Origin: Mesorhizobium sp. 113-3-3
GTDB lineage: Bacteria > Pseudomonadota > Alphaproteobacteria > Rhizobiales > Rhizobiaceae
Assembly (NCBI RefSeq): GCF_016756495.1
Contig: NZ_AP023243.1
Location: forward strand, 4,096,501 to 4,160,500
Length of the DNA: 64,000 nucleotides
Reading direction: 5' to 3'
A model generated the notes under the pieces. That model had not been told where the DNA came from, did no database searches, and worked only from the letters and a program-made list of their open reading frames with translations. The position numbers and the translations under genes were made by a program. This document shows positions 30,769 through 59,196 of the stretch, piece by piece (position 1 is the stretch's first letter; every line of letters begins with the position of its first letter).

Positions 30769-30793
30769 GCGACCGCCGGGCGAGGCCTCTCCT

Positions 30794-31387: not shown

Positions 31388-31390
31388 ATT

Positions 31391-34049: not shown

Positions 34050-34063
34050 TGGCCGATCATGAA

Positions 34064-34089
34064 TTGTCAGTTGAGTTTTTGTCAATCGA
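34064..34089. promoter_or_regulatory. direct repeats in the lysR / peptide operon divergent region
   Basis: TTGTCAGTTGA (34064-34074) and TTGTCAATCGA (34079-34089) start 15 bases apart, 15-40 bases before the LysR start. They could be a LysR binding site for autoregulation and for control of the aminopeptidase operon. The evidence is only repetition and position. Confidence 0.35.
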
Positions 34090-34305
34090 CTTGGGCAAAA
34101 TTGGCGTTTGATCGCTTGCCCCGTTCGGGGATACCCAAAAGGCAAGAGCGATCAAGTCGCCATCAGAAAACGATTATTTGGGGCCTCCGGCACCATTCCA
34201 CCAACGGCAGGGGCCCGTAACAGGGCTTCCGCGGTTGGCGGGCGAAGCTTTGCGCTCACGCTGCGCCGAGGCCGGAGTCATCTGCAAGTGGGAGAATGCC
34301 AGCCT

Positions 34306-35814: not shown

Positions 35815-35868
35815 CCGCCTGCTGTCAGGACAACAACGAGATGCGCTCAAACGGGATGGGAAATCGGA

Positions 35869-36774: not shown

Positions 36775-36792
36775 GAAAAGGGGAACTAAAAC

Positions 36793-38454
36793 ATGAAGAA
36801 ACTGCTTTTGGCGGCATCGGCCGCCGCATTGCTGGCCGGTGCGTGGCTCGCTCCGGCACAGGCCGAATACCTCAAGGAGCACCGAGGCGGTACCATCCGC
36901 CTTCTGGCCCGCTCCGCGGCGGGAACGCTCGATCCGCACATCAACTACACCGACCAGGGCTGGCAGATGTACCAGCCGATCTATGACGGCCTGGTGGCCT
37001 TCCGCAAGGCCGAGGGCATGGACGGCTTCACCGTCGTGCCCGATCTGGCCGAGGCGCTGCCTGCGGTTACGAATGACGGCAAGACGTTCACCTTCAAGCT
37101 GCGCAAGGGCATCAAGTTCTCCAACGGCCAGGAGCTTGGCGTGAAGGACGTCGTCGCCTCCTTCCAGCGCATCTTCAAGGTTTCCGGGCCGACTTCCGGC
37201 ACCTTCTATGCCGGCATCGTCGGCGCCGACAAATGCCTTGCCGACACCAAGAACTGCACGCTGGAAGGCGGCGTTGTCGGCGATGAAGCGGCCGGCACCA
37301 TCACCCTCAATCTCACCAAGCCCGACGCCGAGATCCTCTACAAGCTTGCCTTGCCGCATGCCGTGGTGCTGCCGGCGGATACACCCGCCGAAGACATGGG
37401 CTCCAAGCCCATTCCCAGCACCGGCGCCTACATGATCTCCGCCTTCGATCCCAACAAGGGCATGACGGTTTCCCGCAATCCGAACTTCAAGCAGTGGAGC
37501 GAGGAAGCGCAGCCGGACGGTTACCCGGATGTCGTACAATATGATTTCGGCCTGTCCGAGGAAGCGGCCGTTACCGCGATCCAGAACGGCGAAGCGGACT
37601 GGATGTTCGACGCGCTGCCGAGCGACCGCCTGGGCGAACTTGGCAGCAAGTCCATGGATCAGCTGCACATCTCGCCGCTTTCGGCGTGGTGGTATGCGCC
37701 GCTGAACAACCGTCTGGCACCCTTCGACAACGAAAAGGCGCGCCAGGCCGTTGCCTATGCGATCGACCGCAACACGCTGGTCAAGCTGTTCGGGGGCAAG
37801 GTGCTCGCCTCGCCGGTCTGCCAGGTCCTGCCGCCGGATTTCCCCGGCCATGAAGACTACTGCCCCTTCACCAAGAACCCCGGCGCCAAATGGTCAGCGC
37901 CCGATCTCGACAAGGCAAAGCAGCTCGTCGAGGAATCCGGCACCAAGGGCCAGAAGGTGACCATTATCGTCGAAGACACCGCCATTTCACGGTCGATCGG
38001 CGTCTATCTGCAGAGCGTGCTGACCACCATCGGCTATGTCGCCGACGTCAAGCCGATCTCGTCCAACATCCAGTTCACCTACATCCAGAACACCAACAAC
38101 AAGGTGCAGATGTCCGTTACCCAGTGGTACAAGGACTATCCCGCGGCCTCGGATTTCCTGAACATCCTGTTCAGCTGCGCCTCCTTCCGTGAAGGTTCGG
38201 ATGCGTCGATCAACATCGCCGGCTTCTGCGACAAGGACATCGACGCCAAGATGCAGAAGGCGCTGGACCTCGGCGTCACCGACCAGAAGGCCGCCGACAA
38301 GATGTGGGCCGAAATCGACAGAGAGGTCACGGACAAGGCACCGGCCGTCGGCCTCTTCACCCCGAAGCGGCTTGACTTCGTCAGCAAACGGGTCGGCAAT
38401 TTCAAGTTCAACCGGCAGTTCAACTGGATGATCACCCAGTCCTGGGTGCAGTAA
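36793..38454 (+). CDS. peptide ABC transporter substrate-binding protein (SBP_bac_5)
   Basis: This 553-residue periplasmic protein has a clear signal peptide (KKLLLAASAAALLAGAWLAPAQAE, cleaved near residue 24) and the long three-domain family 5 binding fold. VPDLAEALPAVTNDGKTFTF and ARQAVAYAIDRNTLVKLFGG are typical. The family binds oligopeptides, dipeptides or other compounds. A ribosome site AAAGGGGAAC precedes the ATG. Neighbouring peptidases argue for peptides. Confidence 0.9.
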   Translation: MKKLLLAASAAALLAGAWLAPAQAEYLKEHRGGTIRLLARSAAGTLDPHINYTDQGWQMYQPIYDGLVAFRKAEGMDGFTVVPDLAEALPAVTNDGKTFTFKLRKGIKFSNGQELGVKDVVASFQRIFKVSGPTSGTFYAGIVGADKCLADTKNCTLEGGVVGDEAAGTITLNLTKPDAEILYKLALPHAVVLPADTPAEDMGSKPIPSTGAYMISAFDPNKGMTVSRNPNFKQWSEEAQPDGYPDVVQYDFGLSEEAAVTAIQNGEADWMFDALPSDRLGELGSKSMDQLHISPLSAWWYAPLNNRLAPFDNEKARQAVAYAIDRNTLVKLFGGKVLASPVCQVLPPDFPGHEDYCPFTKNPGAKWSAPDLDKAKQLVEESGTKGQKVTIIVEDTAISRSIGVYLQSVLTTIGYVADVKPISSNIQFTYIQNTNNKVQMSVTQWYKDYPAASDFLNILFSCASFREGSDASINIAGFCDKDIDAKMQKALDLGVTDQKAADKMWAEIDREVTDKAPAVGLFTPKRLDFVSKRVGNFKFNRQFNWMITQSWVQ

Positions 38455-42947: not shown

Positions 42948-43313
42948 TTAATCCCAAGCGACCGAATAGCGATCGATCACCCAGAGCCAGGAGCCGTCGG
43001 CTTGCCGCCTGGCAACCTCGCTGGTCACATCACCGTCGGGCAGTCGGGTCGAGGTGAGGGCAAGGTCGCCGCAAATCAGCGCCGGTCGCTGTTCGCCGAC
43101 CGCAAACTTCCGTCCTGACGCGACAATTTCGGCATAGTATTCACGAATGGCTTGGCGGCCGCGCAGAAAAAATCCGCCACCGCAGTCGATCACCGCATCC
43201 GCCTCGAACAGCGCGACCATGCCATCGATGTCGCCCGCATGCTGTCTCGCTATCAGCATGGGTTCCAGTTGCTGCGGGTCGGAGGCGGGCCTTCCCGCTT
43301 TCGGATCGTTCAT
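42948..43313 (-). CDS. SnoaL/NTF2-like protein
   Basis: The 121-residue protein has the NTF2-like pattern: a helical start (PMLIARQHAGDIDGMVALFEADAVIDC), GRQAIREYYAEI, then beta strands ending VARRQADGSWLWVIDRYS. Such proteins hold small ligands or act as isomerases or cyclases. Nothing in the sequence fixes a substrate. It is on the minus strand next to an A+T-rich gap that starts the RHS region. Confidence 0.75.
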   Translation of the reverse strand: MNDPKAGRPASDPQQLEPMLIARQHAGDIDGMVALFEADAVIDCGGGFFLRGRQAIREYYAEIVASGRKFAVGEQRPALICGDLALTSTRLPDGDVTSEVARRQADGSWLWVIDRYSVAWD

Positions 43314-44032
43314 GACGGCAACCCCATAAATACTTGGCGCCTTTCGAAACTAGCTGATTCCATAGCCTTGGAGATAAGAACCCTCATACATGTACAATAC
43401 ATCAAAGTGTAAATTAGAATTGTCTTATGAATTGAGTGAAGATTTTCTTGGTCGGTTTCTTCACAGGCCCTTAACAGCCCATCACGGGTATGTTACTTCT
43501 GCGTGAGGGAGATGCCCTGACCAGTCGCATTGGGTCGAAAAGGGGCTTAAACCCTTCATTGTGCGGGTGTCGCATTTGGATTTGCAGCTGGTGACGCCAG
43601 GCAGGTGCACCTTGCAGTAGCGGTTTAGGTTTTAGTCGATTCTGCTTTGGCCTCTTGTGTAGTTCTTTTGACAAGAATCTATCGAAGAGGTGGCACGTGT
43701 TATCTGCAAGACATTCCCATAAATGACAGATGATATGAGTGCATAATTGGCTCATGCCTCTGACAAAACTGCGTTTTTTTGGCGACGCATAGAGATTTTT
43801 CCTAAAATCTTGCGAATTATATTCCGATCCGTCGCTGGTTTCCGCCGCTATGAAGAATATACACACTTGACATCGCAACGATCGATGATTGTATTGATAA
43901 TAGATTGCGGCGAGGGAGTGTGTGATGGCTTTTTGTCAGTCACATGAGCATGATTGTGCATCAAATACTAAATTAAACTCCTCTAAAATTAGCCAATTTT
44001 ACTTTCTGCTATTTGAGGCGCGCTTCGTTCGC
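43314..44032. other. A+T-rich gap of about 720 bases before the RHS gene
   Basis: The base composition drops sharply here compared with both sides. Short open frames on either strand have no family features or ribosome sites that I can support. A possible promoter is TTGACA (43867-43872) with TGTATT 17 bases later. The composition marks the left border of a probable horizontally acquired segment. Confidence 0.6.
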
Positions 44033-47000
44033 ATGTTCCGGGGCGCGGCCATGCTGGGTGCCCGGCTTTGCGCGGCGCTGCTTGTGATCGTCGCGCTCGG
44101 TTTTGCGACAGTTCCAGCAACCGCCCAGACGTTGCACGGCGGATGGGGCGCCGGGTACGGCGGACCGTTCGCGACCGCGCGGGAGGCCTGCTATGCCGTA
44201 TGGGCTCACTACCATCCGCCCGGCACCGATCCAAACGAATCGCCCGTTGCTGGAGCCTACAGCCGATTCACTGGCGCGTTCCCAGGACAGGATCCAAATA
44301 CGCAACGGTGTCATTGGACGCACTTTCAGGATGGCACCTGCCCCGGTGTCTTTGCCTGCACGACCATTCTGCCGGGGAATGCTTCCTTCAGCTGTGACAG
44401 TGGTTACCATCGTACGATCGACGATCGGTGTGTTGACGATTTAAAGCCGGAACGCCCTCTATGCGATGGGGAAACGCCAAACCCCACTGAAGGCGATCCG
44501 ATCATTCTAGGGTCGGGGGCCCAGTACTATCGGGTCGACGATTTCGCCACGCAGGACGGCCGGTTCCGCATCGGGCGGGAATACCGGAGTTTCGCCGGCG
44601 GCAGGGTCAGCAGCTACAATGGGCCTGCTCTTGCGCCCTCGGCCGGCTGGCAGTTCAATTTTGGCTATGAGCTGCATCTCGGAGAGTTTTCGGGATCGCC
44701 GAGCTCGCCAACCGGCAAGGTCACTCTGCTGACGCCGGACGGGTCGGGCTACGATTTTGTGCTGCAGTCGAACGGCACGTGGCAAGGCCAGGCCGCGATG
44801 GGGGCCGTATCAGATACCTACAGGCTGGCATTCGTCGGAACCTTGCCGAGCAATCTTGCCGACATGAAGACCCTGCCAAGGCAATGGAAGCTGACCGGCC
44901 CAGACGACCGCGTCTGGACCTTCGTCACCATGTCGCCGGTCAATCTGAGCCCTGCGAGCTACAGGGTTGGCCGCCCGACAGGCATGCGCGAGCGTGACGG
45001 CTACTCCTGGGAACTCAACTATTCGACGGACGGGGCACTGACGTCGCTCGTGGACAGCTTTAGCCGCACGGCGTCTTTCACCTGGAACATCTTCTATCCG
45101 ATGGTTGACCCGAACGCCTCCTGGCCGCGGCGGATGCCCGAAGCGATCAAGGACATCACCTTCCCGGATGGCACGAAGGCGACTTATCTCTACGACCCGG
45201 CGCCCACCGGCACGTCCCCGTCGCGTGCCGTAATCCAGCGTCTTGTCGGTGTGCAGTGGCGCGATGCATCCGGTGCGGTGGTGGATTCCAATACCTATCA
45301 CTATGAGGATGCGAACTACCCGAAATTCCTGACCGGCATCAGCGACCATCGCGGCGTGCGCGTTGAAACTTACGCCTATGACGCGGATGGGCGGTCTGTT
45401 TCAGCCGCAGGCGCCGGTGGCGCCAACGGGGTCACGGTTGCCTATGGCACGTCCGGTTCGCAGCTCACCCGAACCGTCACCAATGCGCTTGGACGGGTGA
45501 AAGTCTACAAATTCGACCCTGTCTCCGGCAGCAGCTGGGATATCCGCTTTGCCGGCGTCGATGGTCAGGCCTCGACCAATTGCCCGGCATCGGCCCGCGC
45601 GCTGACCTATGACGGCGCGGGTTTCGTCGCGTCGCGGACCGACGAGGAGGGCCGCGTCACAAGCTATGTCAGGGACAGTCGCGGCCGGCCGACCGAGATC
45701 GCCGAGGCGGATGGCTTGCCGGAGGAGCGGCAGACCACGATCACCTGGAACGCTACGTTCAACGTGCCCGATACGAAAGTGGCCCCCGGCCTCACCACGC
45801 AATATACCTATAACGGGTCCGGCCAGCTGACCGGGATGACGCAGACCGACACCACCACGCAGACCGTTCCCTATTCGACGAACGGCCAGACGCGAAGCTG
45901 GGCCTACACCTACACGACATCAGGCTTGTTGTCCTCGGTCGATGGACCGTTGCCGGGAACAGGCGACACAGTGTCCTACAGCTATGACGCGGCGGGCTAC
46001 CTCGCCAGCGTCACGGACGAAGTCGGAAATGTAACCACGATCGGTGGCGTCAACGGTCGCGGTCAGCCGACTGCCATCGCTGACGCAAACGGTCTCATCA
46101 GCGAACTGACTTATGATGCCAGGGGCCGGCTCACGGCCAAGGTCGACGACCCCTCGGGCATCTCGGCCACGACGGAGTTCGCCTACGATAATGCCGGCAA
46201 TGTCACCACGCTGACCAATCCGGACGGTTCAGTGCTGGCGATGGAGTATGATGGCGCCAATCGCGTCACATCCGTCACCAATGGCCTGGGCGACAAGGTG
46301 ACCTACGCCTATGATGCCATGGGCAACCGCACCAGCGAACAGTCCACGGACGTCAATTCGCAGCTGTTCTTCGAGGTCACCCGGACCTTCGACGAGCTCG
46401 GCCGGTTGCGGCAGGTCATTGGCGTCGGCCCGGCAACGTGGACCTACGGCTATGACAAGGTCGGCAATCCAACCTCCGTCACCGATCCCAACAGCAATGC
46501 TGCGACATCAGCTTATGACGGGCTCGACCGGCTGATCAGCCTTGCCGATGAGCGCAACAGCACCACGACGCAAGGTTTCGACGCCACCGACAATCCGACT
46601 TCCGTTACTGATCCGCGCAATGTGGTCACCACCTATGTCCGCAACGGCTGGGGGGAGGTGATCCAGGAAAGCAGCCCCGACATCGGCACGGTGGTCTATG
46701 TGCGCAATCGGGACGGTCAGGTCACCCAGAAGACCGACGCGCGCGGCATCATCACCGTCTACACCTACGACTATGCCGGGCGGATAACGACGCGGAGCTA
46801 TCCGTCGGAGACCGCTTCCGATGTCGCCTACACCTATGACAGTGTGGCCGGCGGCAATCCCGGCAAGGGCCGCCTGACGAGTGTCACCGATGCCGCTGGT
46901 ACGGTTGCCAACACCTATGATCTGCTCGGCCGCGTTGTCCAGGAAGTGCGAACGATCGGGGTGAAATCCTACACGGTCGGCTACAGCTGGGACGATGCCG

Positions 47001-48427
47001 GCAACCTGTTGAGCATCACCTATCCGTCCGGCCGCATCGTCGAATATGGCCGCGGCGCGGCAGGCGAGGTGCAACAGGTCCGCACGAGCCCGGATGCGCT
47101 GTCGTCGCCGACGGAACTGGTGTTGTGGGGTACTTACACGCCCTTCGGCCCGCGTTCCATCACGGCCTTCGCCAACGATCTCCGGGAAACCCGCGACTAT
47201 GACACCGATGGCCGCATCGTAGGCTATGGCGTTGAGGACCAGTCGCTCGGCCAGGACCTCATCCGGCGCGCGCTGCAATACCAGGACAAGCGCAACCTGA
47301 CCTCCATCGAGCACCAGCTCAACGCCGCCAACAACGAGACTTACACCTATACGGCCAACGGCTTCATCGAGAACGCCGACGGTCCATGGGGCAGCCTCAC
47401 GTATACGATCGACGGCGTCGGCAACATCACCCAGCGCACGATCACCATCGGCGGCGTCACCTCGACCGACACCTACAGCCTGCAGGCCGGCTCGAACCGG
47501 CTGACCGGCATCGTCACCAACGGTGCGCCGAGCCGCGGCTTCCAGTCGGACCTGGCCGGCAACGTCACGCAGGACGCGACGGCTTCCCCAGCTCTGACCA
47601 AGGCCTACACTTACAATGCCGCAGGCCAGCTCTCGGGCGCCACCACCAGCGGCGCGGCGAGCGGCTCTTATATTTATGACTACCAGTCCCGCCTAGTCTC
47701 GCGCACCATCAGCGCCTCCTCGACGACGCTGCACATGGTGCACGACCTCGATGGCAATGTGATCGCCGAGTACAACGCCTCCGGCACGCTCGTCACCGAA
47801 TACATCTCGGTGGACGGAAGGCCGCTGGCCATGGTCGACAACACCGGTACGGCACCGGCGCTGTACTATGTGCTGACCGATCATCTCGAGCGGCCGATCA
47901 TGATGACGGATGAGAGCCGCAACATCGTCTGGCAAGCGAGCTATCTGCCCTATGGCGAGGTGCGTACCATCAGCGGCACGGCGACACTTAACCAGCGCTT
48001 CCCCGGCCAGTGGTTCCAGATGGAAACGGGGCTGGCCTATAATTGGCATCGGCATTACGATCCTAGCATCGGGCGTTATGTGCAGCCCGATCCGCTTGGC
48101 ATGCCGGATGGGCCCTCGAGGTGGGCCTATGCTAAGAACTCGCCATTGATGAATGTCGACAGAATGGGACTGCAAATACTTCAATCGCAACCTCAGCCTA
48201 GACCAATCCCTAATTCTTGCATGGCGCCAATTGACGAGGATTTCTGCAAGGAAGATAAAGAAAAGGCTAGAGATAAATGCTGGGAGTTGTATGAAACATT
48301 CCAGAATTTTAACAAAAGATTATTTGGACCAGATCCGCACGACATCAATATGTGTATGAAAGGTTACATGGCAGAAATATGCGGAGGGAACCCTGTTGAT
48401 TGGGGTGGAAATAGAAAAAGAAGATAA
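44033..48427 (+). CDS. secreted RHS/YD-repeat protein with variable C-terminal tip (polymorphic toxin candidate)
   Basis: From the ATG at 44033 the protein has 1464 residues. A Sec signal peptide (GARLCAALLVIVALGF to ATAQT) is followed by a Cys-rich N-terminal region (about 35-150), a DUF6531-like segment (EGDPIILGSGAQYYRVDDF), and about 20 YD-type repeats (about 440-1270) such as YDAMGNRTSEQ and YDLLGRVVQE. The RHS core begins at LYYVLTDHLERPI (about 1278) and ends near VQPDPLGMPDGPSRWAYAKNSP. After NVDRMGLQ comes an unrelated 83-residue tip (1382-1464) with five Cys, a Lys/Glu-rich helix and a basic end, coded in A+T-rich DNA. RHS proteins build a shell that encloses such tips. An upstream in-frame start at 43922 would bury the signal peptide and is less likely. 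Confidence 0.88.
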   Translation: MFRGAAMLGARLCAALLVIVALGFATVPATAQTLHGGWGAGYGGPFATAREACYAVWAHYHPPGTDPNESPVAGAYSRFTGAFPGQDPNTQRCHWTHFQDGTCPGVFACTTILPGNASFSCDSGYHRTIDDRCVDDLKPERPLCDGETPNPTEGDPIILGSGAQYYRVDDFATQDGRFRIGREYRSFAGGRVSSYNGPALAPSAGWQFNFGYELHLGEFSGSPSSPTGKVTLLTPDGSGYDFVLQSNGTWQGQAAMGAVSDTYRLAFVGTLPSNLADMKTLPRQWKLTGPDDRVWTFVTMSPVNLSPASYRVGRPTGMRERDGYSWELNYSTDGALTSLVDSFSRTASFTWNIFYPMVDPNASWPRRMPEAIKDITFPDGTKATYLYDPAPTGTSPSRAVIQRLVGVQWRDASGAVVDSNTYHYEDANYPKFLTGISDHRGVRVETYAYDADGRSVSAAGAGGANGVTVAYGTSGSQLTRTVTNALGRVKVYKFDPVSGSSWDIRFAGVDGQASTNCPASARALTYDGAGFVASRTDEEGRVTSYVRDSRGRPTEIAEADGLPEERQTTITWNATFNVPDTKVAPGLTTQYTYNGSGQLTGMTQTDTTTQTVPYSTNGQTRSWAYTYTTSGLLSSVDGPLPGTGDTVSYSYDAAGYLASVTDEVGNVTTIGGVNGRGQPTAIADANGLISELTYDARGRLTAKVDDPSGISATTEFAYDNAGNVTTLTNPDGSVLAMEYDGANRVTSVTNGLGDKVTYAYDAMGNRTSEQSTDVNSQLFFEVTRTFDELGRLRQVIGVGPATWTYGYDKVGNPTSVTDPNSNAATSAYDGLDRLISLADERNSTTTQGFDATDNPTSVTDPRNVVTTYVRNGWGEVIQESSPDIGTVVYVRNRDGQVTQKTDARGIITVYTYDYAGRITTRSYPSETASDVAYTYDSVAGGNPGKGRLTSVTDAAGTVANTYDLLGRVVQEVRTIGVKSYTVGYSWDDAGNLLSITYPSGRIVEYGRGAAGEVQQVRTSPDALSSPTELVLWGTYTPFGPRSITAFANDLRETRDYDTDGRIVGYGVEDQSLGQDLIRRALQYQDKRNLTSIEHQLNAANNETYTYTANGFIENADGPWGSLTYTIDGVGNITQRTITIGGVTSTDTYSLQAGSNRLTGIVTNGAPSRGFQSDLAGNVTQDATASPALTKAYTYNAAGQLSGATTSGAASGSYIYDYQSRLVSRTISASSTTLHMVHDLDGNVIAEYNASGTLVTEYISVDGRPLAMVDNTGTAPALYYVLTDHLERPIMMTDESRNIVWQASYLPYGEVRTISGTATLNQRFPGQWFQMETGLAYNWHRHYDPSIGRYVQPDPLGMPDGPSRWAYAKNSPLMNVDRMGLQILQSQPQPRPIPNSCMAPIDEDFCKEDKEKARDKCWELYETFQNFNKRLFGPDPHDINMCMKGYMAEICGGNPVDWGGNRKRR

Positions 48428-48444
48428 TTCTTCGGGTAGATAGC

Positions 48445-48852
48445 ATGAGCGAATCAGATCGGATATTTGGCATAAAGAAGAAATTTCTACGAGAGAAAGA
48501 CTATAATGGACTGAGAGAATTTCTTGATGAGGCATACGGGGTAGGTACAGTGAGGCGCCACGTAGCCGAGTGTCAGGTTATGTGGGAAGAGGGTCGTAGA
48601 GATGAGGCTATTGATGAGATCGTATACAAGCTAAGAGGTGACAGCTATAGTGTAATGCATATAATACTGGCATCTGAATATGCATTAAAATTAAGGAGAT
48701 TGGATGTGGCTGATTTTCTAGAATTCTCATTTAAGTCGAAATTTCTTGAAAAATCATCTATATTGGCAGCGAAGTTTGTCTATCGTGAATTGAATGGAAT
48801 TGAATCGAGCGAAGATATGAAGGACGCGGCACGAACGTTGCTAATGCCGTGA
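48445..48852 (+). CDS. small helical protein, candidate immunity protein for the RHS tip
   Basis: The protein (135 residues) has no family that I recognise. It is acidic and appears fully alpha-helical, resembling short helical repeats: KKFLREKDYNGLREFLDEAY, then CQVMWEEGRRDEAIDEIVYKL, then SEYALKLRRLDVADFLEF. It begins 17 bases after the RHS stop, has the same A+T-rich composition as the RHS tip, and no signal peptide, as expected for a cytoplasmic antidote. Position is the main evidence. Its stop overlaps by 4 bases an alternative GTG start of the next gene. Confidence 0.65.
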   Translation: MSESDRIFGIKKKFLREKDYNGLREFLDEAYGVGTVRRHVAECQVMWEEGRRDEAIDEIVYKLRGDSYSVMHIILASEYALKLRRLDVADFLEFSFKSKFLEKSSILAAKFVYRELNGIESSEDMKDAARTLLMP

Positions 48853-48872
48853 TCGTAGAAACTATCTCGCAA

Positions 48873-49769
48873 ATGACCGAGGATTTAACTGAACACCCGA
48901 TCCCTCAGCCACATGGCTTCGCCCTCGTCGCCGTCCTGGTCTTCCTCCTCATCGTTTCCGCTATCACCTCGACCTTCGCCCTGACCGCCTGGACGCGGCT
49001 CAAGATGGCTGCCAACGAGACCGAAAGTCAGCGGCTCGGTCTGCTTGCCGAAGGGCTGACCAATGTGCTGGCGGCGCGGCTGTCGGGGGACGGGGCCGAT
49101 CTCCGGCTGCCGCTGAATTTCGAACCGGTCTCCTGCACCGTTGGCGACCTCGCTGTCGTGACGCGGGTGCAGGGGCATTCGGGGCTGATCGACCTCAACG
49201 CCGCCGATCACAATCTGCTTGCCCAGGGTTTTGCCTCGCTCGGCGTCGATTCTGAGATGTCCAACCGGCTTGCGATCGCGGTCGAATATTCGCGTAGCGG
49301 CGCCAGCATCTTTGCCGCGGCCGCCCAGGAGAAAATCGAGGTCGCGGGTGGCTTCAAGCACGCGCCGTTCGAAGCGGTGGCCGAGCTGCAGGATTTTTCA
49401 GGGCTGCGTACGATACCCTTGCTGGATCTCTATCGAACATTCACGGTCAATTCCCGCCGTGGCTCGCTGATAACAAGCCGGGCCAATCCCGTTCTCGCCA
49501 GCATCGTCAAGGTCGGTACACCTGCGGGCGAAAAGACGCCCGAGCAGGCTTTCACGATCGCGATTTCCGTCAGCCGGCGTGGGTCGCCGATCGCTGGTGC
49601 CGCCGGTTACGTCTTCGAGAGCCGTGCGGGCGAGCATGCCGGCCTGCAGCGCATTGCGGCCTATCCCGAAATCGCAGCCGATGAAGCGGGCGCGAAGCGC
49701 GGTGCTGTCGGCGGCTGCGACGAGGTTTTCGGCGCGCCAGTCGCCGGCATGCTTGCGACCCTGCACTGA
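48873..49769 (+). CDS. GspK-like type II secretion minor pseudopilin (orphan)
   Basis: This 298-residue protein has a prepilin leader ending PQPHG, a predicted cleavage G15/F16, and a hydrophobic helix FALVAVLVFLLIVSAITSTFAL. The residue at +5 of the mature form is Val rather than Glu, which is the hallmark of GspK, the tip pseudopilin. The rest matches the GspK layout, with DLNAADHNLLAQGFASLG resembling the helix-hairpin region. GTG at 48849 is an alternative start that would couple it to the upstream gene. No other gsp genes are in the window, so it is separated from a secretion operon or is a remnant. Confidence 0.75.
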   Translation: MTEDLTEHPIPQPHGFALVAVLVFLLIVSAITSTFALTAWTRLKMAANETESQRLGLLAEGLTNVLAARLSGDGADLRLPLNFEPVSCTVGDLAVVTRVQGHSGLIDLNAADHNLLAQGFASLGVDSEMSNRLAIAVEYSRSGASIFAAAAQEKIEVAGGFKHAPFEAVAELQDFSGLRTIPLLDLYRTFTVNSRRGSLITSRANPVLASIVKVGTPAGEKTPEQAFTIAISVSRRGSPIAGAAGYVFESRAGEHAGLQRIAAYPEIAADEAGAKRGAVGGCDEVFGAPVAGMLATLH

Positions 49770-50010
49770 ACCATTGCAGGCGGCCGGCTCTCGTTCGCAG
49801 GAGAGGGATAGAGCGGCGGCCAATTCCTTTGCCAGCTAGGTCAGTAAACAATCCGGTAAGTATTTTTCCCGGCGAGTCTTGTATGACAAACAAAATTGTA
49901 ATGCAGAGGCTTGGATTCCCCAAAAATTCAGTAATACTCACCTTAGCAAGAGCTCTATCGATCCAATATATTAAGTATATCTAATGTTTCTGGACGGAAG
50001 GGGATAGCCG

Positions 50011-53000
50011 ATGTCAAGCGGGAACGACACCATCACCGGCACGAGCGCGGCCGACATCATCGATGCGGGCGAGGGTGACGACATCGTCAATGCGCTTGCG
50101 GGCAACGACACCATCACTGGCGGCAAGGGCGACGATATCCTCAATGGCGGCGCCGGAAACGACACCTATAATTATATCAGGGGTGACGGCAACGACACCA
50201 TTACCGAGTTGAGCCTGGGCGGTTCCAGCGACCGCCTGGTCTTCACCGACATCAATCAGGCCGATGTCACCCTGGTGCGCAACGGCACCGACGTCACGCT
50301 CGTCATCGCTGAAAGCGCGCCCGGCGCCGGCGATGGCGGCTCGATCCTGCTCAAGGACAATTTCGAGGACGTCACCGATCGTGGCATCGACCGGATCGTC
50401 TTCGCCGACAATTCGGCGTGGACACGCGCCTCCATGCGGGCCGCCTGGCTGGCTCAGGTCTCGACCTCGGGCAACGACACCATCACCGGCTTCAATGCCG
50501 CCGACACCATCACCGGCGGCGCCGGCAACGATGTCATGGACGGCGGCAAGGGCAACGACATCTACAATTACGCGCGCGGCCACGGCAACGACACCATCAT
50601 CGAGGCGGCTTCCGGCGGAACCGATGACCGGCTAGTGCTGCAGGGGATCAACCCGTCGGCGGTGAGCCTTGTGCGCAACGGCAACGACGTCACGCTCGTC
50701 ATCGCCGAAAGCACGCCTGGCGCCGGCGACGGCGGGTCCGTCCTGCTCAAGGACAATTTCGAGGAATATTACGACCAGGGCATCGACAAGATCGTCTTCG
50801 GCGACGGCACGATCTGGACCCGGGCCGCACTGCGCACGGCATTCCTTGCCCAGTCCTCGACGTCGGGCAACGACGTCATCACCGGCTTTGCCGTCAACGA
50901 CACGATCAATGCCGGCGACGGCAACGACCAGGTCTTCGCCGGCGATGGCGCCGACACGCTTACCGGCGGCAAGGGTGCGGACAGTCTTTACGGCGGCGCC
51001 GGCAACGACACCTACATTTATGCCCGCGGCGACGGCAACGACACGATCCAGGAAGACAGCGGCGGCGGCGCCGGCGACCAGTTGGTCCTGACCGGGATCA
51101 ATCCGTCGGCCGTGACGTTGGTCCGCAACGGCGCCGATGCGTCGCTGGTGATCGCCGAAAGCGCGCCGGGCGCCGGCGATGGCGGCTCGATCCTGCTCAA
51201 GGCCAATTTCGACGAGAACAATGGCCAAGGCGTCGATAAGATTGTCTTCGCAGACGGCACCATCTGGACGCGGGCGGAGCTGCGGGCGATGTACCTTGCC
51301 CAGGTGTCCACGGCGGGCAACGACACCATCACGGGCTTCGGTGGCGCCGACATCATCAATGCGGGTGCCGGCAACGACGTTGTCGATGCCGGCGGAGGCA
51401 ATGACGATCTGCGCGGCGGCACCGGCAATGACACGCTCTCCGGCGGCGATGGCAGCGACACCTATCATTATGCCCGCGGCGACGGGGACGACATCATCAT
51501 CGAAGGACCTTCCGGCGGTGGACAAGACAGCCTCGTTCTCGAGGGCATCAGCCGCTCGGATGTGACGGTGGTGCGCAACGGCAATGACGTGACGCTTTTC
51601 ATCGCCGAGAGCGCGCCGGGCGCCGGCGACGGCGGATCCATCCAGTTGAAGAACAATGCGGACCCGTACCCCAACAGCGGCGTCGACGGGATTGTCTTCG
51701 CCGGGGGCACGGCATGGTCGAAAAGTGACCTGTTCACCAACATCGATTTCGTCGGCGGCACTGCTGGAAACGACACGGTAACGGGAACAAGCGGAAACGA
51801 CCTGGTTCGCGCCGGCAGGGGCAACGACACTCTTCTCGGTGGCGGCGGCAATGACGAGTATCACTATCAACGCGGCGACGGCAACGACACCATCGTCGAA
51901 GACATCAATGGCGGCACCGATGACCGGCTGGTGCTGGAAGGCATCAACCCGGCCGATATCAGCCTGGTGCGCAACGGCAACGACCTGACGCTGGTGATCG
52001 CCGAAAGTGCGCCGGGCGCCGGTGACGGCGGCTCCGTCCTGGTCAAGGAAACGCTGGAAGACAATTCCAACCGCGGCATCGAGAAAATCGTCTTTGCCGA
52101 CGGCACGGTCTGGACCAGGGCCGATCTCAGGGTGATCGTGCTCGACCGGGCGGGTACGAGCGGCAGCGACACGATCGCCGGCTTCAGCATTGCCGATACG
52201 ATCCAGGGCCGCGCAGGCAACGACGCGCTCAGTGGCGCTGGCGGGGATGATACCTACCTGTACGCCCGCGGCGACGGCAACGATACCATCACAGAAGACA
52301 CCAACAATGGCAGCAACGACCGGTTGGTGTTCAGCAATATCAATGCCGCCGCCGTGAGCCTGTCGCGCAGCGGCAATGACGTGACGGTGGTGATCGCCGA
52401 AAGTACGCCGGGTGCCGGTGACGGCGGATCTGTCTTGCTCAAGAACAGCCTCGACGAGTATTACGGCCAGGGCGTCGACAAGGTGGTCTTCGCCGACGGC
52501 ACGATTTGGACCCGGGCCGACATCAGGGTCAAACTGCTGGATCAGGCTGCAACAGCCGGCAACGATACCATTGCCGGCTTCAACACCGCCGATACGATCC
52601 AGGGCCGCGCGGGCAACGACGCGCTCAATGGCGCCGGTGGCGACGACACGTACCTCTACGCCCGCGGCGACGGCAACGACACCATCACCGAGGACACCAA
52701 TAATGGCGGCAACGACCGGTTGGTGTTTACAGACATCAATCCTTCGGCCGTGACCCTGGTGCGCAACGGCAACGACGTGACGGTGGTGATCGCCGAGAGC
52801 ACGCCGGGCGCCGGCGACGGCGGGTCGGTGCTGCTCAAGAACAGCCTCGACGACTATTACGGTCAGGGTGTCGACAAGGTCGTCTTCGCCGACGGCACGA
52901 TCTGGACCCGGGCCGACATCAGGGCCATGCTGGTTTCGGCATCCGGCACAAGCGGCGATGACACGATCAACGGAACGGGTTCATCCGATATCATCGCCGG

Positions 53001-56000
53001 CCATGCCGGCAACGACACGCTCAATGGTGGCGGCGGCGACGACACCTACCTCTACGCCCGTGGCGACGGCAACGACACAATCAACGAAGGAACCAACGGC
53101 GGCGGCAACGACCAACTGGTGTTCAGCGACATCAACCCTGCTGCCGTCAGCCTGGTGCGCAACGGCAATGACGTGACGGTGGTGATTGCCGAAAGCACGC
53201 CAGGCGCCGGCGACGGCGGCTCGGTCCTGCTCAAGGACACGCTCAACGACAGTTACGGCCAAGGCGTTGACAAGGTCGTTTTCGCCGATGGCACGATTTG
53301 GACCCGGGCCCAGCTGCGCGACATGCTGCTGACCGGCACTGCCGCCAATGAGACGTTTGCCGGGTTTTGGGGCGATGACACCTTCCGCTATGCCCGCGGC
53401 GGCGGCAACGACACGATTGTTGAAGACACGAACAGCGGCAGCGGCGATCGGCTGTTGCTGACCGACATCAATCCCTCGGCCGTGAGCCTGGCGCGCAACG
53501 GCAACGACGTGACGGTGGTGATCGCCGAAAGCACGCCGGGCGCCGGGGACGGCGGCTCGGTGCTGCTCAAGAACAGCCTCGACGACTATTACGGCCAGGG
53601 TGTCGACAAGGTTGTCTTCGCCGACGGCACGATTTGGACCCGGGCCGACATCAGGGTCAAACTGCTGGATCAGGCTGCAACCGCCGGTAACGACACCATT
53701 GTCGGCTTCAACATCGCCGATACGATACAGGGCCGCGCCGGCAACGACGCGCTCAACGGCGCCGGTGGCGACGACACCTACCTCTACGCTCGTGGCGATG
53801 GCAACGACACCGTCACCGAAGACACCAACAATGGCGGCAACGACCGGCTGGTGTTTATTAACATCAACCCTGCCGTCGTCAGCCTGGTGCGCAGCGGCAA
53901 TGACGTGACGGTGGTGATCGCTGAAAGTACGCCGGGCGCCGGCGACGGCGGCTCGGTGCTGCTCAAGAACAGCCTCGACGACTACTATGGCCAGGGCGTC
54001 GACAAGGTCGTCTTTGCCGATGGCACGACATGGACCCGGGCCGATATCAGGGTCAAGCTGCTGGACCAGGCCGGAACCGCCGGCAACGACACCATCACCG
54101 GCTTCAACTCCGCCGATACGATACAAGGCCGCGCCGGCAACGATACGCTCAACGGCGCTGGTGGCGACGACACCTACCTCTACGCTCGTGGCGACGGCAA
54201 CGACACCATTTTCGAGGGAACCAACAACGGTGGCAACGACCGACTGGTGTTCAGCGACATCAATCCTGCGTCCGTAAGCCTGGTGCGCAACGGTAATGAT
54301 GTGTCTGTGGTGATTGCCGAAAGCACGCCGGGCGCCGGGGATGGCGGCTCGGTCCTGCTCAAGGACACGCTCAACGACTATTACGGCCAAGGCGTCGACA
54401 AGGTCGTCTTCGCCGACGGCACGATCTGGACCAGGGCCCAACTACGCGACAGGCTGCTGACCAGCACCGCGGCAGATGAGACGTTTGTTGGATTCTCAGG
54501 CAGCGATACCTACCGCTACGCTCGCGGCGGCGGCCACGACACGATTGTTGAAGGTGCGAGCAGCGGCAACGCCGATCAGTTATTGCTGACCGACATCAAC
54601 CCAGCGGCCGCAACGTTAGTGCGCAATGGCAATGATGTGACATTGGTCATCGCCGAGAGTGCGCCCGGCGCAGGAGACGGCGGGTCGGTGCTGCTCAAGA
54701 ACAGCCTCGACGACTACTACGACCAAGGCGTCGACAAGGTCGTCTTTGCCGACAACACCGTTTGGACACGGGCCGACATCAGGGTCAAACTGCTGGATCA
54801 GGCTGCAACCGCCGGCAACGACTCCATTACCGGCTTCAACTCCGCCGATACGATCCAGGGTCGCGCCGGCAACGATACGCTCAATGGCGCCGGAGGTGAC
54901 GACAGTTACCTCTACGCCCGTGGCGACGGCAACGACACCATTTTCGAGGGAACCAACAACGGCGGCAATGACCGGCTGGTGTTCAGCGACATCAATCCTT
55001 CAGCCGTAAGCCTGGTGCGCAACGGCAATGATGTGTCGGTGGTGATCTCCGAAAGCGCGCCGGGTACCGGCGACGGCGGCTCGGTCCTGCTCAAGGACAC
55101 GCTCAACGACTATTACGGCCAAGGCGTCGACAAGGTCGTCTTCGCCGACGGCACGATCTGGAACAGGGCGGATCTGGTTGCACGGGCCAACGCGACGGTC
55201 AGTTATGCGTCGAATGCTGATGCGGTATCGGTCGATCTGGCGCTTGGAACGACCGTCGTGAACCATGCGGCCCTGGTCGGGCAATTCGTCCGCGTCTACC
55301 AGACCAATGGCAACTACCTTTCTCTTGCCGAAGTGCAGGTCTTCGAAAACGGGCAGAATGTCGCATTGGACGGCACGGCAAGCCAGAAGACCACCGGCTG
55401 GGGAGGCGACGCCAGCCGCGCCATTGACGGCAACACCGATGGCGTTTTCGACCACAATTCCGTGACCCACACCGGAACGCCCAACGTGGGCGAATGGTGG
55501 CAGGTCGATCTCGGTCAAGCGGCCACGATCGATCAAATCGTCATTTTCAACAGAGCGGATTACTCGAACCGTCTTGGCGATTTCGACGTGGTTATCACCA
55601 GCCAGGAACTGTCATCGTCGGCGTCACTGCAAGATGCCATCTCGCAACCTGGTGCTCAGGTCGTGCATTATTCCGGCACTTTCCCCTCGAGCGATACCGT
55701 GTTCACAACCAGCGAAACGCATACGTTGACGAACATCAAATACGTCATAGGATCCGCCTTCAATGACATCCTCCGTGGAGACGCATCGGCCAACATGCTC
55801 CTCGGTGGCGGCGGCAACGATACGATAGAAGGGCGGGGCGGTCAGGACCTTTTGTCGGGCGGAGCCGGCAACGACACCTTCATCTTCAAAGCCGGGTTTG
55901 GCCTCGACACCATCACGGACTTCACCGCTGGAGCCGCGTCGGACGATGTCATCCAGTTCGGCAATGATGTCTTCGCCGACTTCGCCTCGGTCCTCGCCGC

Positions 56001-56118
56001 AGCCACCCAGGTCGGCGCCGACACGGTGATCACCCATGACGCCGGCAATACGCTGACCCTGAAGAATGTTGCGCTGGCAAATCTTCATCAGGATGATTTC
56101 CAGTTCATCGCCGCCTGA
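50011..56118 (+). CDS. giant RTX repeat protein, type I secretion substrate with F5/8 type C domain
   Basis: The 2035-residue protein has no signal peptide and is made of RTX nonapeptides (GGxGxDxxx; e.g. GGKGDDILNGGAGNDTY) that bind calcium after export. Thirteen units each combine a short RTX run with an HCBP_related-like module (DRLVxxxINPxxVxLVRNGNDVTxVIAES, then PGAGDGGSVLLK and VDKVVFADGTIWTRA). An F5/8 type C, galactose-binding-like domain follows (about residues 1751-1865, ending DQIVIFNRADYSNRLGDFDVVI), then a terminal RTX block (about 1925-1965) and a C-terminal signal ending HQDDFQFIAA. The ATG follows GGAAGGGGATAGCCG. The direct neighbours are its transporter genes. It is probably a surface adhesin or biofilm protein; an enzymatic domain is not seen. 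Confidence 0.92.
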   Translation: MSSGNDTITGTSAADIIDAGEGDDIVNALAGNDTITGGKGDDILNGGAGNDTYNYIRGDGNDTITELSLGGSSDRLVFTDINQADVTLVRNGTDVTLVIAESAPGAGDGGSILLKDNFEDVTDRGIDRIVFADNSAWTRASMRAAWLAQVSTSGNDTITGFNAADTITGGAGNDVMDGGKGNDIYNYARGHGNDTIIEAASGGTDDRLVLQGINPSAVSLVRNGNDVTLVIAESTPGAGDGGSVLLKDNFEEYYDQGIDKIVFGDGTIWTRAALRTAFLAQSSTSGNDVITGFAVNDTINAGDGNDQVFAGDGADTLTGGKGADSLYGGAGNDTYIYARGDGNDTIQEDSGGGAGDQLVLTGINPSAVTLVRNGADASLVIAESAPGAGDGGSILLKANFDENNGQGVDKIVFADGTIWTRAELRAMYLAQVSTAGNDTITGFGGADIINAGAGNDVVDAGGGNDDLRGGTGNDTLSGGDGSDTYHYARGDGDDIIIEGPSGGGQDSLVLEGISRSDVTVVRNGNDVTLFIAESAPGAGDGGSIQLKNNADPYPNSGVDGIVFAGGTAWSKSDLFTNIDFVGGTAGNDTVTGTSGNDLVRAGRGNDTLLGGGGNDEYHYQRGDGNDTIVEDINGGTDDRLVLEGINPADISLVRNGNDLTLVIAESAPGAGDGGSVLVKETLEDNSNRGIEKIVFADGTVWTRADLRVIVLDRAGTSGSDTIAGFSIADTIQGRAGNDALSGAGGDDTYLYARGDGNDTITEDTNNGSNDRLVFSNINAAAVSLSRSGNDVTVVIAESTPGAGDGGSVLLKNSLDEYYGQGVDKVVFADGTIWTRADIRVKLLDQAATAGNDTIAGFNTADTIQGRAGNDALNGAGGDDTYLYARGDGNDTITEDTNNGGNDRLVFTDINPSAVTLVRNGNDVTVVIAESTPGAGDGGSVLLKNSLDDYYGQGVDKVVFADGTIWTRADIRAMLVSASGTSGDDTINGTGSSDIIAGHAGNDTLNGGGGDDTYLYARGDGNDTINEGTNGGGNDQLVFSDINPAAVSLVRNGNDVTVVIAESTPGAGDGGSVLLKDTLNDSYGQGVDKVVFADGTIWTRAQLRDMLLTGTAANETFAGFWGDDTFRYARGGGNDTIVEDTNSGSGDRLLLTDINPSAVSLARNGNDVTVVIAESTPGAGDGGSVLLKNSLDDYYGQGVDKVVFADGTIWTRADIRVKLLDQAATAGNDTIVGFNIADTIQGRAGNDALNGAGGDDTYLYARGDGNDTVTEDTNNGGNDRLVFININPAVVSLVRSGNDVTVVIAESTPGAGDGGSVLLKNSLDDYYGQGVDKVVFADGTTWTRADIRVKLLDQAGTAGNDTITGFNSADTIQGRAGNDTLNGAGGDDTYLYARGDGNDTIFEGTNNGGNDRLVFSDINPASVSLVRNGNDVSVVIAESTPGAGDGGSVLLKDTLNDYYGQGVDKVVFADGTIWTRAQLRDRLLTSTAADETFVGFSGSDTYRYARGGGHDTIVEGASSGNADQLLLTDINPAAATLVRNGNDVTLVIAESAPGAGDGGSVLLKNSLDDYYDQGVDKVVFADNTVWTRADIRVKLLDQAATAGNDSITGFNSADTIQGRAGNDTLNGAGGDDSYLYARGDGNDTIFEGTNNGGNDRLVFSDINPSAVSLVRNGNDVSVVISESAPGTGDGGSVLLKDTLNDYYGQGVDKVVFADGTIWNRADLVARANATVSYASNADAVSVDLALGTTVVNHAALVGQFVRVYQTNGNYLSLAEVQVFENGQNVALDGTASQKTTGWGGDASRAIDGNTDGVFDHNSVTHTGTPNVGEWWQVDLGQAATIDQIVIFNRADYSNRLGDFDVVITSQELSSSASLQDAISQPGAQVVHYSGTFPSSDTVFTTSETHTLTNIKYVIGSAFNDILRGDASANMLLGGGGNDTIEGRGGQDLLSGGAGNDTFIFKAGFGLDTITDFTAGAASDDVIQFGNDVFADFASVLAAATQVGADTVITHDAGNTLTLKNVALANLHQDDFQFIAA
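50320..55080 (+). repeat. 13 tandem coding units, mostly 396 bp, with a 1128-bp duplicated block
   Basis: The proline codon of PGAGDGG recurs at 50320, 50716, 51166, 51616, 52012, 52408, 52804, 53200, 53536, 53932, 54328, 54664 and 55060. Intervals are 396 bp (132 residues), twice 450 (two extra nonapeptides) and twice 336 (shortened). Units 8-10 and 11-13 have the same 396/336 pattern offset by exactly 1128 bp, which shows duplication of a three-unit block. Confidence 0.9.
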
Positions 56119-56146
56119 TGCCTGAACTGGAAATCATTTGAAGGCG

Positions 56147-57892
56147 ATGCCGCAGTCCCGTCCGTCCGAGCCGCCGCGAACCACCCTCGCGGCGGTTCTT
56201 GGTTCCTTCCGGCGTGCCTTTGCCGGCATCGCGCTGATGAGCGGTGTCGTCAACATATTGGCGCTGACCGGCTCGTTCTTCATGCTGCAGGTCTACGACC
56301 GGGTCATCCCCGGCCGCAGCGTGCCGACGCTGGTCGGGCTTGCGGTGTTTGCCGGCACGCTGTTCGTCTTCCAGGGCGTGCTCGAGCTCATCCGGTCGCG
56401 GCTGCTGGTGCGCATCGGCATGGGGCTGGACACACGGTTGAGCGGGCAGGTCTATGCGGCACTCATGCGGCTGCCCTTGCGCACCAAGCTCGCCGGCGAT
56501 GGCCTGCAGTCGCTGCGCGATCTCGACCAGGTGCGTTCGTTTATGTCGAGCGCCGGTCCGACGGCGCTTTTCGACTTGCCATGGATGCCGCTCTATCTCG
56601 GCATCTGCTTTCTCTTCCATTTCTGGATCGGCATGACGGCGCTCGCTGGCGCCATCGTCCTGTTCAGCCTGACGCTGTTTGCCGAGGCCCGCACGCGCGA
56701 GCCCGCCAAGGAAGCCAACCGCCAGGCCGCCGCGCGCAACACGCTGGCCGAAGCGACACGGCGCAATGTCGAGGTGCTGCAGGCGATGGGCTTTGGTTCG
56801 CGCATCGCCGGACGCTGGGCCGATATCAACGCCGAGTATCTCGGCACCAACGCCAAGGCGAGCGATCTGGCCGGCACGCTCGGAACCATCTCCAAGATCC
56901 TGCGCATGATGCTGCAGTCCGGCATACTGGCGATCGGCGCCTGGCTCGTCATTCACCAGGAAGCGACAGGCGGCATCATGATTGCGAGTTCCATCATGAT
57001 GAGCCGGGCGCTGGCGCCGATCGAACTGGCCATCGCGCACTGGAAGGGCTTCGTCACCGCCCGCCAGGCCTGGGCGCGGCTCACCCAGCTGCTGGCGCTG
57101 CTTCCCGAAGCGGCGACGACGGTTTCCCTGCCGGCGCCGACGGCCACTCTCGTGGTCGAAGGCATCAGCGTCACGCCGCCGGGCGAGCGGCGGGTGGTCG
57201 TGCAGGATGCGGGCTTTGCCCTGGAAAAGGGCGCCGGCCTCGGCATTATCGGGCCGAGTGCTTCCGGCAAATCCTCGCTGGTGCGGGCGATCGCCGGCAT
57301 CTGGCTGCCGGGCCGCGGCGCCGTCAGGCTGGACGGCGCAACGCTTGACCAGTGGTCGCCGGAGGAGCTTGGCCGGCATGTCGGCTATCTGCCGCAGGAT
57401 GTGCAGCTGTTCGACGGCACCATTGCCGAGAACATCGCGCGTTTCGAGCCCGAGGCGCCTTCGGACAAGATCCTGTCTGCCGCCCGGGCGGCAGGCGTGC
57501 ACGACCTGATCGTCCATCTGCCGGAAGGCTACGAGACACGCATCGGCGAGGCCGGATCGGCCCTGTCGGCCGGCCAGCGGCAAAGGGTTGCGCTGGCGCG
57601 TGCGCTTTATGGCGATCCGTTCCTGGTCGTCCTCGATGAGCCCAATTCGAACCTCGATGCCGAAGGCGAGGCCGCCTTGACCGAGGCGATCCAGGGCGTT
57701 CGCGCCCGCGGCGGCATCGCCGTCGTGGTGGCGCATCGCCCAAGCGCGCTGGCAAGCCTCGACCAGGTCCTGGTCATGGCGAATGGCCGGGTCCAGGCCT
57801 TTGGCCCGAAGAACGAAGTGCTGAACAAGGTCACCCGGCCGGGTGGCGTGCCATTGAAAGTCGTATCCGCGCCCGAGGAGAACGCATCCTGA
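56147..57892 (+). CDS. type I secretion ABC transporter/permease (PrtD/HlyB-like)
   Basis: This 581-residue inner-membrane exporter has a six-helix ABC transmembrane domain (about residues 20-310; LALTGSFFMLQVYDRVIPGRSVPTL is diagnostic of the PrtD group) and a nucleotide-binding domain (about 330-560). Walker A is GPSASGKSSLVR, the signature is LSAGQRQRVALARAL, and Walker B is VVLDEPNSNLD. No N-terminal C39-like domain is present, which fits the PrtD rather than the HlyB subgroup. A TTG at 56138 is in frame, but the ATG at 56147 is preferred. It starts 28 bases after the RTX gene and overlaps the next gene by one base. Confidence 0.94.
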   Translation: MPQSRPSEPPRTTLAAVLGSFRRAFAGIALMSGVVNILALTGSFFMLQVYDRVIPGRSVPTLVGLAVFAGTLFVFQGVLELIRSRLLVRIGMGLDTRLSGQVYAALMRLPLRTKLAGDGLQSLRDLDQVRSFMSSAGPTALFDLPWMPLYLGICFLFHFWIGMTALAGAIVLFSLTLFAEARTREPAKEANRQAAARNTLAEATRRNVEVLQAMGFGSRIAGRWADINAEYLGTNAKASDLAGTLGTISKILRMMLQSGILAIGAWLVIHQEATGGIMIASSIMMSRALAPIELAIAHWKGFVTARQAWARLTQLLALLPEAATTVSLPAPTATLVVEGISVTPPGERRVVVQDAGFALEKGAGLGIIGPSASGKSSLVRAIAGIWLPGRGAVRLDGATLDQWSPEELGRHVGYLPQDVQLFDGTIAENIARFEPEAPSDKILSAARAAGVHDLIVHLPEGYETRIGEAGSALSAGQRQRVALARALYGDPFLVVLDEPNSNLDAEGEAALTEAIQGVRARGGIAVVVAHRPSALASLDQVLVMANGRVQAFGPKNEVLNKVTRPGGVPLKVVSAPEENAS

Positions 57893-59196
57893 TGGCCGTG
57901 GCCCCCACCATCGACCGGACCATCCGGCGCTATTTGCTTGCCGGCGTGGCGGCGTGCATTCTTCTGGTCGGTGGCGCGGGCAGCCTGGCGGCGGTCACCG
58001 AACTGTCCGGCGCCGTGATTGCGCCGGGCAAGCTGGTCGTCGATTCCAGCGTCAAGAAGGTGCAGCATCCCACCGGTGGCGTGGTCGGCACCATTCTGGC
58101 GCGCGAAGGCGATGCGGTGAAATCCGGCCAGGTGCTGCTTCGTCTCGACGAGACGGTCACCCGCGCCAATCTGGCGATCGTCATCAAGGGGCTCGACCAA
58201 TTCGAGGCGCGGCTGGCCCGTCTCGAAGCCGAGCGCGACAACCATGCCGACATCGCCTTTCCGGCTTCATTGACATCGAGGCGCGATGACCCCGCCGTTG
58301 CGCGCGCCATGGCTGGCGAACAGTCGCTGTTCGAGTTTCGCCGCCAGGCCCGCGCCGGGCAGAAGGCGCAATTGGAAGAGCGTATTGCGCAGCTTGCCGA
58401 GGAGGCCTCGGGGCTCACCGAGCAGCGGGAGGCCAAGAGCCAGGAAATAAAACTGATCGGCACCGAGCTCGACAGCATCCGCACGCTCTGGCTGAAGAAG
58501 CTTGTCTCGATCGACCGCATGACGGCGCTGGAGCGCGACGCGGTGCGGCTCGACGGCGAACACGGGCAGCTGACGGCCTCCATTGCACAGGCCAAGGGCC
58601 GGATTGCCGAGACCCGGCTGCAGATCATCCAGGTCGACCAGGATCTGCGCAGCGAGGTCGCGACCGAGCTGCGCGATGTTCAGGGAAAAATATCCGAATT
58701 CGTCGAACGCAAGGTGTCCGCCGAAGACCAGCTTAAGCGCATCGACATCCGCAGCCCGCAGGATGGCGTGGTCCACCAGCTCGCCGTCCATACGATCGGC
58801 GGCGTCATTTCGCCGGGCGAGGTCATCATGCTCGTGGTGCCGGTGGCGGATGATCTGACCGTCGAGGCCCGCATTGCCCCACAGGACATCGATCAGCTCT
58901 CGCTGGGCCAGGACGTGACGCTAAAACTCTCGGCGTTCAATCAGCGCGTGACCCCGGAACTGAACGGCGTGGTCAACGAGATTTCAGCCGATCTCAGCGT
59001 CGACGAGCGCAGCGGCGCGGGCTTCTACACGGTTCGCGTCAGCCTGCCGCGCACGGAGCTGAAGAAACTGAAGGGTCTTACCCTGGCGCCGGGCATGCCT
59101 GTCGAGGCGTTCTTCTCCACCGGCAGCCGGACCATGCTGTCCTACCTGGTGAAACCTCTGGCCGATCAGATAGCGCGCGCGTTCCGGGAAGAGTGA
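57892..59196 (+). CDS. type I secretion membrane-fusion protein (PrtE/HlyD-like)
   Basis: This 434-residue protein has one N-terminal membrane helix (about residues 13-35), a lipoyl half (VIAPGKLVVDSSVKKVQHPTGG), a long coiled-coil hairpin (about 90-285) and a C-terminal beta-barrel region (IRSPQDGVVHQLAVHTIGGVISPGE, VEARIAPQDIDQL). It bridges the PrtD-like ATPase and an outer-membrane TolC-like channel, which is not encoded in this window. The start codon overlaps the PrtD stop (TGATG). The RTX-prtD-prtE order is that of dedicated type I systems. Confidence 0.94.
   Translation: MAVAPTIDRTIRRYLLAGVAACILLVGGAGSLAAVTELSGAVIAPGKLVVDSSVKKVQHPTGGVVGTILAREGDAVKSGQVLLRLDETVTRANLAIVIKGLDQFEARLARLEAERDNHADIAFPASLTSRRDDPAVARAMAGEQSLFEFRRQARAGQKAQLEERIAQLAEEASGLTEQREAKSQEIKLIGTELDSIRTLWLKKLVSIDRMTALERDAVRLDGEHGQLTASIAQAKGRIAETRLQIIQVDQDLRSEVATELRDVQGKISEFVERKVSAEDQLKRIDIRSPQDGVVHQLAVHTIGGVISPGEVIMLVVPVADDLTVEARIAPQDIDQLSLGQDVTLKLSAFNQRVTPELNGVVNEISADLSVDERSGAGFYTVRVSLPRTELKKLKGLTLAPGMPVEAFFSTGSRTMLSYLVKPLADQIARAFREE

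Follow-up and report, generated by a model that had tools for sequence, protein, structure and literature searches.

The window, that is, the whole stretch of 64,000 nucleotides analysed here from Mesorhizobium sp. 113-3-3 (contig NZ_AP023243.1, positions 4,096,501 to 4,160,500), carries on its forward strand an RHS gene whose variable C-terminal tip, together with the small gene behind it (the follower), probably forms a polymorphic toxin/immunity cassette of Mesorhizobium, composed of a fixed shell, an antibacterial toxin tip and an immunity follower. The tip/follower stretch is exchanged between relatives, it is foreign in base composition, and the follower belongs to a gene family; what we infer beyond this concerns toxicity, target, delivery route, direct binding of the two proteins and neutralisation. 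The reading is supported by the occurrence of the same body and the same right-hand neighbour with four different tip/follower pairs, by breaks in composition at both edges of the cassette, by known toxin tips on sibling bodies, by a SUFU follower in the other RHS class of the genus and by orphan homologues of the follower. This kind of system is already known, and the tip/follower pair itself is new as far as the searches used (HMMER profiles, shared words and tblastn) can detect, which is the meaning of "no known family" for both proteins throughout.

The RHS frame extends from 43922 to 48427, and the database form of the protein has 1464 aa with its start at 44033. Its body (43922–48172) contains RHS/YD repeats and the RHS-associated core domain, with RHS_repeat (4e-68) and RHS (2e-8) of Pfam and Rhs_assc_core of NCBIfam (TIGR03696, 4e-20) above cut-off. 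Counted in the protein that is read from 43925, residue 1416 is the last of the core, which places the core end at position 48172, and the tip occupies 48173–48427 including the stop codon, with 84 residues encoded by 48173–48424, five of which are Cys, and a C-terminal NRKRR. The original prediction, made from the letters of the window, had described 83 residues from 48174; the five Cys and the NRKRR end were correct, but the start lay one base out of frame and the length was one residue short. The follower (48445–48852 including the stop codon, plus strand, 135 residues) begins after a gap of 17 bases, as had been stated, and the next frame behind the pair is a gspK-like gene, that is, a gene for a minor pseudopilin-like protein (48849–49769, plus strand, true start uncertain).

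The abrupt change of composition claimed for the end of the conserved core is evident in the guanine plus cytosine (GC) content, which falls from 0.627 in the RHS body to 0.405 in the tip, with third-position GC falling from 0.772 to 0.369; the follower is equally A+T-rich (0.407, third-position 0.385), and the next gene returns to 0.646 and 0.751. Measured in sliding windows, the tip and follower make up the most A+T-rich 677-base stretch of the whole window (GC 0.41): only 0.2% of 2533 such windows, taken in steps of 25, are equally A+T-rich, and the nine lying within 0.02 of the tip/follower value all start at 48076–48276, that is, they overlap the tip/follower stretch. A second A+T-rich stretch, with GC of about 0.40–0.52, lies immediately upstream of the RHS gene (43300–44000), and the only frame scanned there (43474–43878, minus strand) has no Pfam family.

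The exchange of the cassette is seen by comparison with the same locus in G082, G119 and G101, three genomes of the same genus in which the window's RHS class is likewise followed by a small A+T-rich frame (GC 0.40, 0.45 and 0.30, respectively) and then by a gspK-like gene. Around the core end, the four loci are 81–89% identical (to the window, 89/100 in G082, 82/100 in G119 and 44/53 in G101). At the DNA level (blastn, E limit 1e-10), G082 matches the window at 43907–48159 with 82% and at 48915–53378 with 92%, and nothing is matched between them; G101 matches at 47249–48131 and 48915–49660 with 84%; and G119 matches at 44134–48114 with 73% and again from 50011 on with 70%, its gspK-like gene being alike at the protein level only (54%). 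The putative exchanged cassette, absent from the closest same-locus relative G082 (locus L145), is thus delimited as 48160–48914. The junction on its right, 48915, coincides with the invariant residues GF (10–11 of the frame from 48888) in the gspK-like protein, and therefore the exchanged piece takes in the leader end of that gene. The followers at the four loci have 135, 119, 201 and 112 aa and are unrelated in all six pairwise comparisons (z −1.1 to 1.6), and the six tip pairs have no clear similarity either (z −0.7 to 3.5, the highest for G101 and G119). Thus a swappable tip with a changing follower, as originally proposed, is what is seen in the relatives that share this body at this site, and the tip itself was found at E <= 0.001 in 1 of 99 genus genomes, the window's own; conservation of tip and follower in all relatives with normal codon use, which would have spoken against the original prediction, was looked for and not seen. 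A fifth genome, G003, which has this RHS class with its core cut short, 2.3 kb from a gspK-like gene, was left out of the comparison. The RHS gene of G101 (L144:7265–8176) is a 5′-truncated C-terminal remnant with an internal stop, and its tip and follower are still present.

In line with the original prediction, which recognised no toxin family in it, the tip fits no known family: nothing exceeded the cut-off in Pfam, and no match at E <= 1 was found in NCBIfam, PHROGs or PADLOC. The best Pfam entry, AvrLm4-7 (17.3 bits against a cut-off of 25, E 0.01), was set aside as below cut-off. At E <= 1, 29 of the 99 genus genomes had a match (32 places including the window's own), and the best apart from the window's own (E 0.0014) contains two internal stops and was regarded as chance. 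In viral contigs, a DNA motif picked out two stretches, neither of which is RHS when read in frame.

The search with the RHS C-terminus yielded 17 proteins including the window's own, and the other 16, with named members in Mesorhizobium, Sinorhizobium and Allorhizobium, have the core in common with it but differ in their tips. A scan of ten tips, that of G101 and nine of these 16 siblings, identified two known toxin domains, Cytotoxic (5e-32) and Ntox33 (5e-23), whereas nothing reached the cut-off in the other eight. That sibling bodies carry toxins argues against the idea that the tip is an inert, adhesive or signalling end piece, varied by recombination at RHS ends, with the follower as a passenger. 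This idea draws on the shortness of the tip, its lack of a motif or profile match, the low confidence of its structure model and the occurrence of tips of 75–84 residues in G119 as well. It is nevertheless unlikely, as a small A+T-rich frame stands behind the tip in all four same-locus genomes and homologues of the follower persist without RHS.

If the tip is taken as a toxin, it could also be a diverged member of a known toxin family lying below the reach of the searches used, and this is a possibility to be taken seriously, though not the probable one. Short domains are easily missed by HMMER, shared-word and tblastn searches, on which the negatives depend, and among comparisons with the 16 sibling tips (z −1.3 to 3.4 over shuffles) three score slightly above shuffles (z 3.2–3.4). 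These z values are small, and the scores may reflect composition, as the content of Cys and Pro could explain them, with remote kinship being possible. Moreover, the absence of matches in the profile collections named above weighs against a diverged family member, as does the tblastn search of plasmids for tip relatives (E <= 10), which gave five matches at E 4–6, all in oxidoreductase genes. A shared Cys-hairpin family uniting the tip with those of P0019 and G101, which resemble it in the CX10C and CX8C pattern, was also considered and is not established: the pattern occurs in only 3 of 58 distinct tips, the shuffles average 0.97, and 22 of 500 shuffles reach 3.

The follower is a real gene family, since its homologues at 51–53% and 38% identity retain the frame and two orthologues differ at codon positions 1, 2 and 3 by 13, 7 and 39 changes. 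It is a small family. As a single query against 5.8 billion proteins the follower finds only itself, and an alignment of five relatives used as query brings in 12 proteins, counting the follower itself, at E values up to 1, of which three are partial or chimeric-looking; a scan of named bacterial genomes returned only the two Mesorhizobium loci already found. No Pfam family exceeded the cut-off (the best, ThermoDBP-RP_arch, was set aside at E 0.13), NCBIfam gave no match at E <= 1, and neither the tip nor the follower has a convincing match in PHROGs or PADLOC, three PHROGs at E 0.16–0.20 having been set aside. In plasmids, the search for follower relatives gave a single match (E 4), which is at chance level.

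According to its high-confidence model (mean predicted local distance difference test score (pLDDT) 93.5), the follower is predicted to be a TPR-like protein of eight helices, which agrees with the all-helical fold originally ascribed to it. Chaperones, too, make use of TPR-like folds, and one of them, the type III chaperone IpgC, is among the structural matches of the follower model; the follower could then be a secretion chaperone or adaptor for the tip rather than an immunity protein. This is quite unlikely, as followers change together with the tip, and homologues of the follower are present in G019, G071, G136 and G200, four genomes in which no RHS core was detected and a chaperone would hence have no client, the G200 copy adjoining an RHS fragment. 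For an immunity protein there is a parallel in G141, where a gene of the genus's other RHS class has a SUFU protein (4e-14) as its follower (L182:6357–6908), and Imm-SuFu is counted among the immunity domains in the available part of PMC3482391. In three genomes in which no RHS core was detected, an orphan homologue of the follower (L007:7669–8362, L047:6968–7447 and L008:6182–6614) lies between one and the same pair of neighbour genes, and in L007 a second small frame (8093–8362) lies behind the homologue, possibly another orphan immunity gene. In another genus (L049:6114–7256), a homologue has an unknown small frame on one side and a fragment of an RHS core on the other, in what looks like the relic of an RHS cassette array.

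Several observations weigh against a toxin/immunity cassette. The tip has no recognisable toxin motif, and modelled alone it gives a poor structure (pLDDT 52); the core ends in DRMGL in place of DPxGL; no Pfam family reached the cut-off in any of the eight sibling followers scanned; and of the five follower homologues found outside the window, those of G019 and G046 are broken genes, so that orphan copies are not always retained. In addition, no second genome was found with this tip and this follower together, and therefore their pairing rests on position.

As for the delivery of the RHS protein, the adjacent gspK-like gene gives only matches under cut-off (PilX_N with 20.1 bits in Pfam, T2SS_GspK with E 0.0013 in NCBIfam), and the label gspK is a weak one, taken from the neighbours of its homologues, which lie near type II secretion system (T2SS) genes. 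Among 144 genus genomes, gspK-like genes are found in 26, RHS cores in 36 and both in 24 (Fisher p 2.5e-16, uncorrected for kinship, the samples of the two scans being taken as identical). Moreover, 20 of 29 gspK-like places have an RHS core on the same contig at a distance of no more than 15 kb; 29 of 30 rows were counted here, as the dropped row is the second piece of one G101 gene. In the wider family the tie is weaker: in a sample of 277, with the window's own genome excluded, an RHS core is present in 10 of 22 genomes with gspK vs 27 of 254 without it (p 1.2e-4), and in 5 of the 10 with both (G154, G203, G306, G343 and G377) the two lie within about 10 kb on one contig. The order in G017 is an RHS gene, a small frame, an unscanned frame, T2SSM_b, the gspK-like gene, T2SSE, T2SSF, an N_methyl pseudopilin and a T2SSJ match just below cut-off, with a secretin on the opposite strand. 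The window's own genome also has a secretin (L179:7415–9541) and a gspK-like gene near its second RHS gene. In the window itself, no T2SS part was found among the nineteen frames scanned, with 1–16963 and 27094–38454 outside the scan, and the gspK-like gene stands alone beside the RHS gene. RHS genes near type II secretion genes are represented by the window (48849–49769), L180:6510–16100 and L179:7415–15855. Farther to the right, 50011–59196 resembles a type I secretion locus, with a strongly repetitive protein of 2035 residues followed by an ABC exporter and an HlyD-type protein.

Since RHS genes in this genus are often located close to genes for type II secretion, export of the RHS protein by Sec and T2SS is plausible, and the N-terminus of the protein is signal-like as judged by eye. 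No PAAR domain, the mark of type VI RHS effectors, was found in it, as Pfam at E <= 1 gave RHS families only, VgrG and other type VI secretion system (T6SS) genes lying outside this search. In the available part of PMC3482391, "T2SS" is given as the trafficking mode of many RHS toxins, which apparently means the general export pathway. Among the papers listed by a literature search on RHS with type II secretion, on type II secretion in Mesorhizobium and on RHS in Mesorhizobium, none was seen that treats RHS with T2SS for rhizobia.

In the mechanism proposed, the RHS shell would serve as a fixed delivery body, probably exported by Sec and the T2SS. The shell would enclose the tip, and an aspartyl cut at the core end would free it, following the RHS scheme described in the accessible parts of PMC8636562 and PMC3150448; such cutting is plausible at the window's core end, because DRMGL retains the Asp and the GL of the motif, only the Pro being replaced, and the siblings P0004 and P0009 have DREGL at this place. 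The mostly helical, Cys-rich tip of 84 residues would be carried by the shell and is probably an antibacterial toxin, and its poor model contains two predicted helices holding CX10C and CX8C, which suggests that a hairpin held by disulfides forms after export. The follower, in turn, probably serves as an immunity protein of the cytosol with a TPR-like fold; it would bind the tip and protect the producing cell and its kin. If it is soluble, this would place the action of the tip, or the need to restrain it, in the cytosol. Tip and follower are exchanged together, probably by recombination that has the conserved core on one side and the gspK-like gene, likewise conserved, on the other. The most far-reaching version of this account combines a new toxin type (a small disulfide-held helical hairpin with CX10C and CX8C), its delivery by a class of RHS bodies linked with type II secretion, its neutralisation by a new immunity family with a TPR-like fold, members of which also circulate as orphans in RHS-free Mesorhizobium, and a cassette that moves by recombination between the RHS core and a pseudopilin-like gene, itself captured, which exchanges its leader end along with the cassette; as a whole this version is doubtful.

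The locus provides a well-bounded toxin/immunity candidate, for which no tip relatives and only about a dozen follower relatives were found. The same-locus comparison shows that root-nodule bacteria of this genus exchange RHS cassettes. In addition, type II secretion is suggested as an export route of RHS proteins in this bacterial family, a route with one experimental precedent in the literature searched, namely Bcn-A of Xanthomonas.

Compared with known systems, as far as the available portions of the sources describe them, one close counterpart is found in the rhs-CT/rhsI modules of Dickeya dadantii, for which toxicity and neutralisation have been demonstrated (Poole et al. 2011, PMC3150448). 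Both have a homologous RHS body, a sharp divergence at the core end (past DPxGL in the modules, past DRMGL in the window), an unrelated tip and follower per strain at one locus, and orphans elsewhere, orphan immunity genes being described in that paper. They differ in that the window's tip and follower have no profile match at cut-off and its body adjoins a gspK-like gene. The invariant core with dissimilar tips in one locus also recalls the C-terminal displacement of enterobacterial RHS proteins (Jackson et al. 2009, PMC2935791); in enterobacteria displaced tips remain within the locus, whereas none is seen directly behind the pair in the window.

The RHS bacteriocin Bcn-A of Xanthomonas perforans (PMC7259588) loses its activity in an xpsD deletion, which points to type II secretion. 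It resembles the window's system, by description and not by sequence, as an RHS protein with an immunity gene downstream. However, the immunity protein of Bcn-A is predicted to lie in the inner membrane, whereas the follower looks soluble, and dependence on the T2SS comes from the xpsD deletion for Bcn-A and from gene neighbourhood only for the window. The window's RHS protein differs from the T6SS effector Rhs1 of Photorhabdus laumondii (PMC8636562) in lacking a Pfam PAAR domain and in its signal-like N-terminus, whereas the two are alike in having an RHS shell, a C-terminal toxin and an immunity gene, the latter two as candidates in the window, and in both aspartyl autocleavage would free the tip.
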